NCBI GenBank assembly: GCA_014239005.1
Contig: JABAAA010000063.1
Span: forward strand, 1-6,993
DNA from: Alphaproteobacteria bacterium
Lineage (GTDB): Bacteria; Pseudomonadota; Alphaproteobacteria; JABAAW01
DNA: 6,993 nucleotides
Direction of reading: 5' to 3'
How positions within the stretch are numbered: position 1 is the stretch's first letter; every line of letters begins with the position of its first letter. Positions 1 to 6,993 of the stretch are shown here, piece after piece. The notes below the pieces were generated by a model. It searched no databases. It had not been told where the DNA came from and saw nothing but the letters and a program-made list of their open reading frames with translations. A program made the translations under genes and the position numbers.

Positions 1-713
1 CGTTGGTGGGCGAGCCTCGTGTGTTCGTCCGTCCTTCGCCGGCGAGCGCGGAGCATAGTTTGACGACGGGTTTGTTGGAGAATTTGTTATTGTGCGAGGC
101 TTGCGGGTATGAAACTTTGCTGGTCGAATCGGTAGGCTCGGGACAGGCTGAGACGTTGATCGACGACTATGTCGATTGTCTGTTGGTGCTGGTAGCGCCA
201 GGAAGCGGCGACGGGTTGCAAGGCATGAAACGGGGGTTGTTGGAGTTGGCAGACATTCTTGTCGTCACCAAAGCGGACGGGGAACAGGCGCAACGAGCGC
301 ACAAAACTTTGGAGGACTATCGGCAGGCGTTGGGAAGTTCTGCGACGCGGCGCACGACGCGTTATCTTGTCTGTTCGGCGGAGGGGGGGGGGGGGAGGGG
401 GGGGGGGGGAGGGGGGAGGGGGGAGGGGGTTGATTCTTTGTGTGAGGAGATAGACGCGTTCTTTGCAAACCGTTCGGCGGAAGAAGTGTGGAAACGTCGT
501 TGTATGCAACGCAAGAATTTGTTTTTGCGCGCCTTCGCGAAAGAGGCTGTGGAAGATGCGTTGCGGAGGGGGAAGCTGGGAGGGGGAGAGACTTTAGGCG
601 AGGTGCTGGAAAGGTTAAACGATACGAAAGGGGAGGGTTTGTTGCCCGCGGAAGAAGCGGCGAAGTGGTTTGCCAAACAGACATGTTATGCGTCTGAAAA
701 CAACACTACTTAA
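1..713 (+). CDS. meaB: MeaB/ArgK-family P-loop GTPase, 5' end outside the window
   Basis: G3E-family GTPase of the MeaB/ArgK type, known to chaperone and protect cobalamin-dependent acyl-CoA mutases such as methylmalonyl-CoA mutase in the cytoplasm. The first complete codon is at position 3; the coding frame enters from upstream, so the Walker A (G1) and switch I parts are missing. Visible, numbering from that codon: VFVRPSP (residues 7-13), LLCEACGYETLLVESVGSGQAE containing the ESVG G3 motif (about 29-50), the family hallmark PGSGDGLQGMKRG (66-78), TKAD as G4 in place of the usual NKAD (89-92), and CSAEG as G5 (124-128). The C-terminal helical dimerisation region follows (about 140-225). The oddity is a Gly/Arg insertion at residues 128-142, encoded by a poly-G tract, in a loop that is normally only a few residues long. 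The short tail after KWFAKQ is not conserved. Family assignment is firm; the mutase partner is not in view. Confidence 0.9.
   Translation, partial: LVGEPRVFVRPSPASAEHSLTTGLLENLLLCEACGYETLLVESVGSGQAETLIDDYVDCLLVLVAPGSGDGLQGMKRGLLELADILVVTKADGEQAQRAHKTLEDYRQALGSSATRRTTRYLVCSAEGGGGRGGGGGGRGEGVDSLCEEIDAFFANRSAEEVWKRRCMQRKNLFLRAFAKEAVEDALRRGKLGGGETLGEVLERLNDTKGEGLLPAEEAAKWFAKQTCYASENNTT
381..429 (+). repeat. Interrupted poly-G tract inside meaB
   Basis: The run reads GA, then G13 (383-395), A, G13 (397-409), A, G6 (411-416), A, G6 (418-423), A, G5 (425-429). It looks like two G13A units followed by two G6A units, the kind of layout made by slippage and local duplication. In the meaB frame it encodes glycines with scattered Arg and Glu. 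With one base added, the frame stops at TGA 431-433; with one base removed, it stops at TAG 451-453. The tract also has far more G-runs with single-base loops than a G-quadruplex needs. Exact run lengths are prone to sequencing error. Confidence 0.95.
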
Positions 714-3492: not shown

Positions 3493-3521
3493 ATTCTATC
3501 ACACTTGTCGAGCAGAGTCAT
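3493..3521 (-). promoter_or_regulatory. Candidate sigma70-type promoter for mcp
   Basis: On the minus strand, ATGACT (3521-3516) is followed after 17 bp by TAGAAT (3498-3493), preceded by TG one base away (TGATAGAAT), which gives an extended -10. The -35 matches consensus at four of six positions and overlaps the smc stop codon. Transcription would start near 3486, leaving a leader of about 65 bases before GTG 3419. The match is modest and comes from inspection only; mcp could equally be read through from smc. Confidence 0.3.
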
Positions 3522-3527
3522 TCTGCT
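3511..3527. other. Perfect 6-bp inverted repeat across the smc stop codon
   Basis: AGCAGA (3511-3516) and TCTGCT (3522-3527) flank the 5-base loop GTCAT, which contains the smc stop (3518-3520). There is no T-run after it on the minus strand, so it is not a standard terminator. It overlaps the candidate mcp -35 element and might pause transcription or be incidental. Confidence 0.4.
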
Positions 3528-6500
3528 GCAGGTCTTGCCAGTTTGACCGCCTCTTCCAACGCGACGGAAACGATTCGGCTGCATCCGGGCTCTGGCATGG
3601 CGACGCCGTAGAGGCGCAAGGCGCGGCTCATGGTGTGGCGGTGGTGCGTAATGACGAGGAATCGCGTATCGTGTTGTCGCGCGATGTCTTCGAGCAAGTC
3701 GCAAAATCGTGCGACATTGGTGTCGTCGAGGGCTGCGTCGACCTCGTCCAAGATGCAAAAGCCTCCGCCCGTGACGGAGAAGACCGCCAAGACGAGCGCG
3801 ATGGCGACCAACGCCTGCTCGCCGCCCGACAGCACGCTGAGCGACTTGAGCCTTTTGCCCGGCAGCGCGATGCGTATTTCAAGCCCTGACGAGATGGGGG
3901 CTTCGGGGTCGGAAAAGAAGAGCTTCGCCTCGCCGCCACCGAACAATCGCTCGATGAGCGCCGCGAAGCGCACGCCCGTCTCCTGCTGCACGCGCACCAG
4001 TTTCCCAGATGCCTCCTCCTCCAGCTTTCGTACCGACAAGTGCAACTTCTCCAACGCCTGTGCAACATCGGTGTGCTGTCGCTCGGTCTGCTCTTGCTCT
4101 TCGGTGATAAGCTCGAGCTCCTGCTTCGCCGTAAAGTTGATTTCACCCAAGCGCGCTCGCTTGTCTTGCGTCGAGCGTTTCGCAGCTTTTTGTACTTCGA
4201 CATTCTCAGCAAGAAAGGCATCGTCGAGGTCGTAACGCCGTTGCAAGTCCGAAAGCGAGCAGTCCATCTCTTCTTGCGCACGCGTCGCCAAACGTTGGCG
4301 TTCCAGCGGCAGCGGCTCGGCTTGGGTTTGCAAACGCACCGCCTCCTTTTCCGCCTCCGCGTTTGTTGCCGAGCATCGTCGATGTTGCTCGCGCAGCCTC
4401 GCCAGGCACCCGCTCGCTTTCTCCAAGTCATCCTTGTGCGCTCGATGCTCAAGCGAAGCGCGACGGTGGAGCGCACGTTGTTCGTCCAGCGACTTTTGGT
4501 CGCGCAACGGACGCGCATCCCATGTCGCAGCTTCGTTTTCAAGCGCACGCAGACTCTCGACACTGCGCTGCAACAGCTGGCGATGACGCTCGGTCAGCGC
4601 ACGCAAACGCTTCTCACTTTGAAGACGCGCTTGCTCTTCGTCGCGCGCATGCACAATCGCCGCCTGCTCGCGCTGCCGTTCTGCCAGCAACCCGCCCTGC
4701 TCTTCCAACAAACTCTCGCGCCTTCTGCCGAGCTCTGCCTGCTCGGCTGCCAAACGCTCTCGCTCGTCCAGCTGCCGCAAGCCCTGTTCTGCCGAACGCT
4801 CCTTGTTGCGCGCATCCTCCAAGCTGAGCGAAAGCTGCTGCTCGCTCGCACGATCGCGCTCCTGTTCCCGCGCAAGCGTCTCCGCCGTGCGCATGCGTTT
4901 GCGCAACTCTTGCAAGGCTTTTCCTTGTCGAGCCTGTTCGTCCAACACGGCTTGCACACGCTCACGCGTCTCGACAAGCTTTCTTGCAATCTCTGCCGCT
5001 TGCCGCTCATACTCGTGCTGCAAGCGCGCCAAGTCCGCCTCGCTTTTCGCCAGCGCCTGCTTGCGTTGTTCTTTTTGCAAGAAGGCGTGAAAACGTTGCT
5101 CCAATGCCGCTGCCAGCTCGGCGCGGGTTGCCAGTCCGTCCCATCGCCAGCACGCGCCGTCGCGCGTCACCACCCTCTGTCCGCGCGCGAGCATCGGATG
5201 CAATTTCTCCCCCTCGCGCCTTGAGGAGACCAGCCCGATGCAAGCCAAACGTTCGCGCAAGGGAGGCGGTGCGTTTGTAAAGAGTGCTGCAAAACTGACG
5301 ACCCCCGCAGGCAGAGGAGGCGAAGAGGCTGCGGGAGGCGGAAGGGTTTTCCACGCGCGCCAAGAATTAAGATGATCCTTGAGGGTTTCGATGTTCTGCG
5401 TCTCCTCCTGCCAGCTGGCGAACAGGTCTTCGCCGAGCGCACCGAACAGAGCGCGTTCGAGCCCTTCAGGAATGGTGCAATCCGCGACCAACGGGGTATC
5501 TTCTGCTTCGCTCTGCGCCGCTTGCGAAGACGAGGATGCCTCCCGCAACAGCTCGCGATCTCTGTCGCGTTCTTCGCTCAGCGCGCGATGACGGGCGCGA
5601 TAACCAGCCTCGACCTGCTCGCGCGTCTGTGCCAGCGCCTCTTCTTCGCGGCGCAGGCGCGGCAGCACCTTGCTCTGCGTCTCGTGTGCCTTCTCCTCGG
5701 CCTGTTGCACCTGCTCGGTGAGGCTGTTCAAGTTTTCTGTCCGTTCTTGCGTCAAGTTTTGCGTCAAGTTTTGCAAATGCGCGCTGGTCTGTGTTTTTTT
5801 GCCAATTTTTTCGGTCAGTTTTGCAAGTTCTTTTTCCAGCTGTTCTTTCTGCAAGCGCGATGCAGCAAGGCGTTCCGAATAGACGGCACTCTTCCTGTCG
5901 ATGTTGCTGATCTCAATGGCGATTTGTTTCAACCTTCGCTCGATGCTCACCAGCTCCTGCGTCAACGTTGCCAAAGCTTTTTTATGGTCTTTTTTATGAT
6001 TTTGCTCGCTCTCGCCCTGTTGTCGAGTGGGCTGTTTTGAATTGTTGCTCGGCTTGCTTTGCGTTTGCAAATTTTCTCTAGCCTCGTGCCACAAGCGTTC
6101 AACCTCTTCGAGCGCACGCTGTTGGTCATTGTGTTGCTTTTCCTGTTCGCGCTTTCGCAGCAGCAGGTCTTTTTTTCGCTGCTGGTTTTCTTTCTGCGAT
6201 CGTTCCATAAGCGCCATGTCTTGAGCGATGCGTTGGCATCGCACCGCACTTTCGATCTCGCGCTTTTCAGCCGCCGCATGGTGTTGCTGGGCTTGAACCG
6301 TTTCCGCCTCGATGGTGGCGAGCGCGACGCGTCCCTGCTCGTTCTGCTGCTCGTGCACCTTTTTTCGTTGTTCGATCGAGTTCGCAGCCTTCTCCAAAGC
6401 TTGCTGTTCGCGCAGCAAGTCCGCCGCTTGCCAGCGTTTGATCTGCAACGAGAAGGTTCGATAACGCTCGGCACGCGCCTCGTCGGTGCTGAGGGTTTGT

Positions 6501-6993
6501 CGTCGCTTGGCGAGCTCTTGCAAGCGATCGGCGACGCGCGTCAAGATCGTCTGGGTGTTTTCCATGGCAGCGAGAGCTTCGCTGCGTCGCGTATACAAAC
6601 CCCTGACTCCCGCAGCTTCTTCGATCAGCTGGCGTCGTTCGACGGGCTTCGCCTCGACAAGAGCCGCAACCCTTCCCTGCGCGATGATCGCCGAGGCATT
6701 CGCGCCCAGTCCGACATCGGCACACAGCGTCTGTACCTCGCGCGCCAACGCTTCCTTGCCGTTGATGCGATAGGTCGAGCCCCCGCCGCTTTCGATGCGC
6801 CGCGAAAGAGCGATCCTGCGTTCACCCTGCAAACGCGACAGAGGATGACTGCTGAAAGGGCTGTGAGAAGGGCTATCGGGCAGATTTTCTAGATTGCTTT
6901 CTAGATTGTTATCGGGGTTGTCGTTCGACGGCGACGTTGTTGTCGGTTGTGCTGTCGTCGAGAGGGGGTGCTCCAAGATCAAGGTCACCTCGG
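3518..6993 (-). CDS. smc: Chromosome segregation ATPase SMC, N-terminal end outside the window
   Basis: SMC is the core ATPase of bacterial condensin; with ScpA/ScpB it loops and aligns the chromosome. The frame enters at the right edge as EVTLILE, matching the AEVTL segment usually found after the Walker A and Q-loop, so roughly the first 80-100 residues are off-window. Numbering from the GTG codon at 6988 (internal, not the start): head segment SRRIESGGGSTYRINGKE at 62-79 and IIAQGRVAALVEAKP at 101-115; long coiled coil about 130-490; hinge about 498-625 with LERALFGALGEDL and GQRVVTRDG; return coil about 630-1000; then the C-terminal head with RLFGGGEAKL (1014-1023), signature LSGGEQAL (1053-1060), Walker B FCILDEVD (1077-1084), D-loop ALDD and H-loop VITHH (1112-1116). 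All catalytic motifs that fall in view are intact. Low-complexity insertions occur at about 9-50, 308-337 and 400-420. Hinge and head style resemble alphaproteobacterial SMC. Confidence 0.95.
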   Translation of the reverse strand, partial: EVTLILEHPLSTTAQPTTTSPSNDNPDNNLESNLENLPDSPSHSPFSSHPLSRLQGERRIALSRRIESGGGSTYRINGKEALAREVQTLCADVGLGANASAIIAQGRVAALVEAKPVERRQLIEEAAGVRGLYTRRSEALAAMENTQTILTRVADRLQELAKRRQTLSTDEARAERYRTFSLQIKRWQAADLLREQQALEKAANSIEQRKKVHEQQNEQGRVALATIEAETVQAQQHHAAAEKREIESAVRCQRIAQDMALMERSQKENQQRKKDLLLRKREQEKQHNDQQRALEEVERLWHEARENLQTQSKPSNNSKQPTRQQGESEQNHKKDHKKALATLTQELVSIERRLKQIAIEISNIDRKSAVYSERLAASRLQKEQLEKELAKLTEKIGKKTQTSAHLQNLTQNLTQERTENLNSLTEQVQQAEEKAHETQSKVLPRLRREEEALAQTREQVEAGYRARHRALSEERDRDRELLREASSSSQAAQSEAEDTPLVADCTIPEGLERALFGALGEDLFASWQEETQNIETLKDHLNSWRAWKTLPPPAASSPPLPAGVVSFAALFTNAPPPLRERLACIGLVSSRREGEKLHPMLARGQRVVTRDGACWRWDGLATRAELAAALEQRFHAFLQKEQRKQALAKSEADLARLQHEYERQAAEIARKLVETRERVQAVLDEQARQGKALQELRKRMRTAETLAREQERDRASEQQLSLSLEDARNKERSAEQGLRQLDERERLAAEQAELGRRRESLLEEQGGLLAERQREQAAIVHARDEEQARLQSEKRLRALTERHRQLLQRSVESLRALENEAATWDARPLRDQKSLDEQRALHRRASLEHRAHKDDLEKASGCLARLREQHRRCSATNAEAEKEAVRLQTQAEPLPLERQRLATRAQEEMDCSLSDLQRRYDLDDAFLAENVEVQKAAKRSTQDKRARLGEINFTAKQELELITEEQEQTERQHTDVAQALEKLHLSVRKLEEEASGKLVRVQQETGVRFAALIERLFGGGEAKLFFSDPEAPISSGLEIRIALPGKRLKSLSVLSGGEQALVAIALVLAVFSVTGGGFCILDEVDAALDDTNVARFCDLLEDIARQHDTRFLVITHHRHTMSRALRLYGVAMPEPGCSRIVSVALEEAVKLARPAAE
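5725..5772 (-). repeat. Four 12-bp units inside smc coding NLTQ-type tetrapeptides
   Basis: Units start at 5725 (tgttcaagtttt), 5737 (ctgtccgttctt, diverged), 5749 and 5761 (both gcgtcaagtttt, identical). On the coding strand they give repeated QNLT followed by QERT and ENLN, at about residues 406-421 in the first coiled-coil arm. The CAAGTTTT core is shared with the meaB/mcp spacer array. Confidence 0.85.
5978..6001 (-). repeat. Two 12-bp units inside smc coding HKKD/HKK
   Basis: ttttttatggtc (5978-5989) and ttttttatgatt (5990-6001) agree at 10 of 12 positions and encode NHKKDHKK at about residues 330-337. They sit at the end of a polar insertion (rich in N, Q, S, K) that interrupts the expected heptad pattern of the first coiled-coil arm. 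Confidence 0.8.
6885..6908 (-). repeat. Two 12-bp units inside smc coding NLES/NLEN
   Basis: ttttctagattg (6885-6896) and ctttctagattg (6897-6908) agree at 11 of 12 positions and encode NLES and NLEN at about residues 28-35 of the visible protein. They lie within the Pro/Ser/Thr/Asn-rich insertion in the N-terminal head. Confidence 0.85.

Follow-up and report, generated by a model that had tools for sequence, protein, structure and literature searches.

The window analysed here, the whole of a contig of 6993 bases with three genes (G000:C296), raises the question of why a gene for a metabolic GTPase should carry a long and almost pure poly-G block in its reading frame, and whether this block acts as a genetic switch. 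A reading made from the sequence only (hereafter the sequence-only reading) had regarded it as a candidate phase-variation tract. The window belongs to the genome assembly G000 (1.476 Mb, 336 contigs, 69.9% complete), and its genes are:

3 to 713, plus strand: 3' part of meaB, 236 codons, cut by the contig start
804 to 3419, minus strand: gene for a methyl-accepting chemotaxis protein
3518 to 6991, minus strand: gene for an SMC protein, cut by the contig end

The frame at 3–713 matched the Pfam MeaB family (PF03308) with 112.5 bits against a cut-off of 23.1. Against the NCBIfam equivalogs, this frame truncated by the contig start scored 129.6 bits (cut-off 329) and 96.4 bits (cut-off 240.75). 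The N-terminal part of the protein including the P-loop lies before the contig start, and the P-loop GAPGAGKS is present in the near-relative protein P0001. Both TKADG and CSA are found in frame, and we take TKAD to be the base-specificity loop of this MeaB and CSA to be its G5 motif; in our alignment of MeaBs (A2), S125 is invariant and A126 nearly so. The product would be a working B12 chaperone. The client mutase (PF01642) was detected in four of five genus genomes and not found in G000 at its completeness of 69.9%. The proximity of meaB to the chemotaxis receptor gene recurs in two same-genus genomes, with two open frames between the genes in G003. Between the same two genes, the window also holds 12-base repeats (710–781) with TTAATTAAATTT and AAGTTTTCAGTC as units, in 4.1 and 4.5 copies.

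The block follows directly after C124-S125-A126, and its parts are:

375 to 380, plus strand: codons S125-A126 of the G5 motif, placed by reading frame and alignment
382 to 429, plus strand: poly-G block A-G13-A-G13-A-G6-A-G6-A-G5; the loop codons 381–428 encode EGGGGRGGGGGGRGEG
383 to 395, plus strand: first G13 run
397 to 409, plus strand: second G13 run
411 to 416, plus strand: G6 run
418 to 423, plus strand: G6 run
425 to 429, plus strand: G5 run, read from the sequence
429 to 713, plus strand: C-terminal 94 residues and stop codon, lost in either shifted frame; mostly helices in the structure model

The two G13 runs and three shorter runs are thus located in frame behind the G5 motif, as the sequence-only reading had described, with run lengths being those of an assembly that is likely short-read. 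The 48 bases consist of 43 G and 5 A, a single A preceding each run, and lie within a purine-only stretch of 50 bases (380–429, counting the preceding GG) that is the sole purine or pyrimidine run of at least 25 bases in the window. A longest G/C run of at least 13 was reached in only 3 of 2000 composition shuffles of the window, and hence two adjacent G13 runs are not a product of chance. Tandem Repeats Finder describes 380–429 as 7.1 copies of a period of 7 with 90% matches, a seven-base unit that the sequence-only reading had not mentioned. In the single structure model of the window's 236 residues, whose mean pLDDT of 69.1 is too weak for detail, the block is predicted to form a flexible loop that connects a strand to a helix, with pLDDT below 50 at residues 130–138, which agrees with the flexible linker proposed for this site. 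The structure matches also include the fused mutase IcmF, HypB and UreG at lower Z (at most 9.4). We consider the loop likely to be exposed and harmless to MeaB.

A contingency locus would exploit such an arrangement: through frequent one-base slips in the G13 runs, MeaB would alternate between on and off, so that some cells would deliver the cofactor to methylmalonyl-CoA mutase and others would not. In favour of this explanation are the two in-frame G13 runs of meaB and the dependence of the protein on the ON frame: a net shift of one base in the block leads to a stop after 7 or 0 residues, and the last 94 residues are gone. Furthermore, a run of 13 G is of a length seen at poly-G contingency loci. 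The alleles of close relatives point in another direction. A search of 5.8 billion proteins, in which the 7989 candidates sharing most words were scored, returned 106 proteins, including two near relatives with 96–97% identity to the window MeaB outside the loop: P0001 (211 of 219 residues identical) has a loop of 13 residues, EGGKGEGEKGEKG, and P0002 (138 of 142; an N-terminally short prediction of 165 aa on an 18 kb contig) one of 23 residues, EGGEKGEKGEGEKRGERGKMGEG, compared to 16 residues in the window. All three loops are in frame; they differ in length by whole codons and differ in composition too. E, G, K and R, amino acids that all have purine-only codons, account for 51 of the 52 loop residues, the exception being one M in P0002. 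Purine-only coding of the P0001 and P0002 loops is a deduction, since these two are known as proteins only. No off allele of MeaB occurs among these three alleles, a small sample with two members known as proteins, drawn from a protein database that may favour in-frame alleles because gene callers split shifted ones.

More distant relatives supply the reference state. All twelve more distant MeaBs of the same genus or genus-like origin (P0003–P0012, G003 and G004; P0003–P0012 with 59–68% identity to the window MeaB outside the loop) have five residues at this position, which bears out the short loop that had been assumed for the family. Alignment with homologues had been suggested as a way to see whether relatives lack the insertion: they do in these twelve cases, but not in the near relatives P0001 and P0002, which possess it. 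Judged by this alignment, of the MeaBs compared only that of the window and those of its nearest relatives carry the insertion, which changes far faster than the remaining protein whilst keeping the frame. Relative to the five-residue loop, the three alleles exceed by 8, 11 and 18 codons. Steps of one heptamer as the sole mode of loop change were rejected, with the allele lengths not being multiples of the seven-base unit apart.

The same alleles bear on two further explanations. It could be argued that base calling or assembly produced the lengths of the runs, or the pure-G nature of the block, as an artefact: two-colour sequencers do produce poly-G errors, the assembly is as fragmented and incomplete as noted above, and its N gaps measure about 98 bases and in some cases have flanks that overlap, a pattern that would result from short-read scaffolding. 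Against this, the block is interrupted by single A's, frame and homology resume past it, the independent near relatives P0001 and P0002 show an insertion at the same place, and G runs of at least 10 were found in five of five genus genomes, with one such run shared in position by two of the genomes; we thus regard an artefact as improbable. Alternatively, the gene or its message could fold into stacked G-quadruplexes at the block and thereby slow replication or translation. The prediction in favour of quadruplexes is strong: allowing them takes the energy of bases 360–440 from -12.2 to -128.6 kcal/mol, with three quadruplexes drawn, albeit with a magnitude that is not realistic. The loops of the near relatives, however, are rich in E and K and lack such G runs, so that the runs themselves, and with them a quadruplex, are not a conserved feature. 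This leaves a quadruplex function very improbable.

The explanation that we favour, with a probability of roughly 70%, is an in-frame, purine-only expansion of a five-residue loop that changes by whole codons, likely through slippage under frame-keeping selection. A five-residue loop of the type retained by the distant relatives would have been expanded in frame by the purine-only block, and replication slippage would then lengthen and shorten it; slippage is the natural reading given that the block is tandem and purine-only. Selection would purge out-of-frame products. The loop can be described as elastic codon by codon because the loops of 13, 16 and 23 residues in the near relatives and the window are all in frame whilst the distant ones have five. 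Cells in which meaB is off following a one-base slip may occur, and these variants would be failures, purged or rare, rather than the output of a programmed switch. The block is thus most likely tolerated slippage.

Whether this behaviour is peculiar to meaB was judged against the repeat content of the genus. Short tandem-repeat arrays reach 329 per Mb in the sample from G000 (32 of the 336 contigs, picked by number) and 642, 208, 250 and 336 per Mb in those from G002, G001, G004 and G003, against 46 per Mb in 27 same-class loci (88 kb) and 56 per Mb in 80 diverse loci (584 kb), these controls being loci around MeaB-like genes instead of random genome samples. The diverse, distant loci were 80 kept of 276, with 31–49% identity, and loci consisting entirely of N were left out of the repeat table. 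G/C runs of at least 8 bases likewise exceed the Markov expectation in all genus samples (18 observed against 4.2 expected in G000, 38 against 3.45 in G002, 6 against 0.2 in G001, 3 against 0.5 in G003 and 1 against 0.35 in G004), whereas the two control sets stay under it, with 3 runs for 29.0 expected and 2 for 5.3 expected. In every set, the number of A/T runs of at least 8 is about half to twice the expectation. The G000 sample includes contig C292, which was already known for long runs and is the source of both its runs of at least 10. Some of the 98-N assembly gaps directly adjoin perfect arrays of 13-base repeats (L115:482-579, L149:16034-16131), and some of these arrays are therefore probably longer than assembled. 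Exact-G8 runs number 51.5 and 46.0 per Mb in G000 and G002 and about 11 per Mb in G001, G003 and G004; the median of 55 non-genus genomes is 3.6 per Mb, with two of the 55 exceeding both G000 and G002. Two genomes from other families of the class, G024 and G058, are denser in exact-G8 runs, with 105 and 94 in 1.6 and 1.7 Mb. The idea that long G runs are unique to the genus was rejected, with G12 or longer present in 18 of 60 genomes searched.

These repeats keep the reading frame where this could be judged. Periods divisible by 3 make up 101 of 114 arrays in homology-supported ORFs versus 175 of 268 elsewhere (Fisher p 1.5e-6). Within the fetched genus contigs, which include ones fetched for their long runs, 23 of 89 G/C runs of at least 8 could be frame-checked by homology and 23 of 23 are in frame, a result that was the same when queries of at least 98% identity were left out. 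This count comprises the window's two G13 runs and six runs judged on alignments below 35% identity; the other 66 runs, without homology on both sides, went unjudged, and spans are detected more easily than shifts. Pfam matched eight of ten ORFs at long runs in G000. Five of these carry the run within the matched domain and remain in frame through it (ATP synthase gamma, sarcosine oxidase alpha, BioY, a metallophosphoesterase and an M16 peptidase), in RpoD a long run lies just before region 1.2, and in a Rieske protein and a Na/Ca exchanger the run is at or before the likely start. In one such case (L079, G000:C292:12374-12391) a sense-strand C18 run ends right before the first ATG of the Rieske cytochrome bc1 subunit (petA), where it occupies the position expected for the ribosome-binding site. 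The run-bearing genes identified by Pfam are mostly housekeeping genes, and the kinship with contingency loci of surface or restriction genes did not hold for those that can be named (AtpG, RpoD, sarcosine oxidase alpha, BioY, M16 peptidase and the like). With three of three alleles in frame, the only allele comparison at hand goes against the contingency reading, and all checkable runs are in frame too: phase variation is not supported so far, and a switch at this locus is unlikely. A long in-frame homopolymer alone is hence no sign of phase variation, and the alleles described here point the other way. Nor is every long G run unstable, because a G10 run that G000 and G002 share at one site (L080:3024-3033 and L072:1501-1510) is equally long in both although 69 of 301 aligned columns differ (232 alike). 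For the minus-strand frame at this shared site, Pfam gave no match in G000.

Loss of mismatch repair in the lineage could allow G runs to grow, and in G000 there are hints of this: mutL falls into two overlapping reading frames near model position 152 (L252:10080-11782, G000:C325) and mutS was not found in the 69.9% of the genome that is covered. However, mutS is present in the four remaining genomes of the genus: in three it scores above the cut-off, and in the fourth (G003) it is split at an assembly gap instead of by a frameshift. For mutL, five of five genomes are over the cut-off. The mutL shift itself may be an error: the 112 kb of G000 sequence with homology contain 8 frameshift candidates including this one, and three of the 8 are located at N stretches. 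As a sole cause, mismatch-repair loss is unsupported, given that G002 has both genes and yet is richer in repeats; for G000 it is a lead and no more, and as the cause of the slippage we judge it unlikely.

A second elastic gene was identified in ATP synthase gamma. Across 19 genus-like members its loop ranges from 18 to 35 residues, with the unit QDTAG present in 1, 2 and 3 copies in P0226, P0227 and P0221, and the loop also varies in length among three proteins that are more distant (19, 20 and 25 residues). Named relatives of the protein such as those of Aestuariispira, Marivibrio and Curvivirga have 43–45% identity and suggest that the genus belongs to the Alphaproteobacteria. Going by these sequences, ATP synthase gamma would behave in a similar manner to the MeaB loop. 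A second loop of the same protein, rich in K, D, G and E, has 12–17 residues in P0221, P0226, P0227 and P0229 and 5–6 residues in 15 other genus-like members.

A broader possibility is that of a genus-wide accordion, in which in-frame G/C runs and repeats of 12–15 bases are gained and lost in the loops of core enzymes (MeaB, ATP synthase gamma, RpoD), housekeeping proteins diversify within species and G13 slippage also gives rise to cells reversibly off in B12 delivery; we consider this full version to be a long shot. If it were true, the genus would provide a natural setting in which to study how core enzymes tolerate fast-changing loops. It would also be a setting in which to ask why long G runs are common here, when a survey of 99 genomes describes poly(C)/(G) tracts of more than 2 bases as generally under-represented and poly(A)/(T) tracts as over-represented and placed towards the 5' end of genes (PMC2831843).

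Several known systems resemble the codon-elastic loop in part. Rickettsia palindromic elements are in-frame insertions tolerated in housekeeping proteins, and the meaB block would likewise be a tolerated in-frame insertion in such a protein; unlike them it has no palindrome, as a purine-only strand cannot self-pair as one. Domain, fold, base-specificity loop and C-terminal extension, the last of which is described as taking part in dimerization (PMC9974510), are common to the MeaB/MMAA GTPase and the window MeaB, in which the loop after the G5 motif is, by comparison, lengthened from 5 to 16 residues. With the poly-G/poly-C contingency loci of Neisseria and Campylobacter (PMC5084427, PMC5953494, PMC8437040), the locus shares a long coding homopolymer and a one-base slip that would end translation, but it differs in being a metabolic gene with an A-broken block, whole-codon alleles and no off allele seen among the three. 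It also resembles the homopolymeric tracts regarded as general regulators, in that it is a coding homopolymer in which a frameshift can inactivate the gene; compared to the tracts in that survey, G/C runs of at least 8 here exceed the Markov expectation and the block is found in the 3' part of the gene (PMC2831843). The in-frame coding repeats and low-complexity regions of bacterial proteins (PMC6821194) likewise preserve codons, form a flexible stretch and vary between relatives, and the block shows features of an in-frame coding tandem repeat, with a period-7 unit and loops of 13, 16 and 23 against 5 residues. What sets it apart from these is that it is nearly pure G, lies in a metabolic GTPase and belongs to a genus-wide excess. 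The block is best classed with low-complexity loops that stay in frame and are elastic by codons, here in a genus that is rich in repeats and probably alphaproteobacterial.
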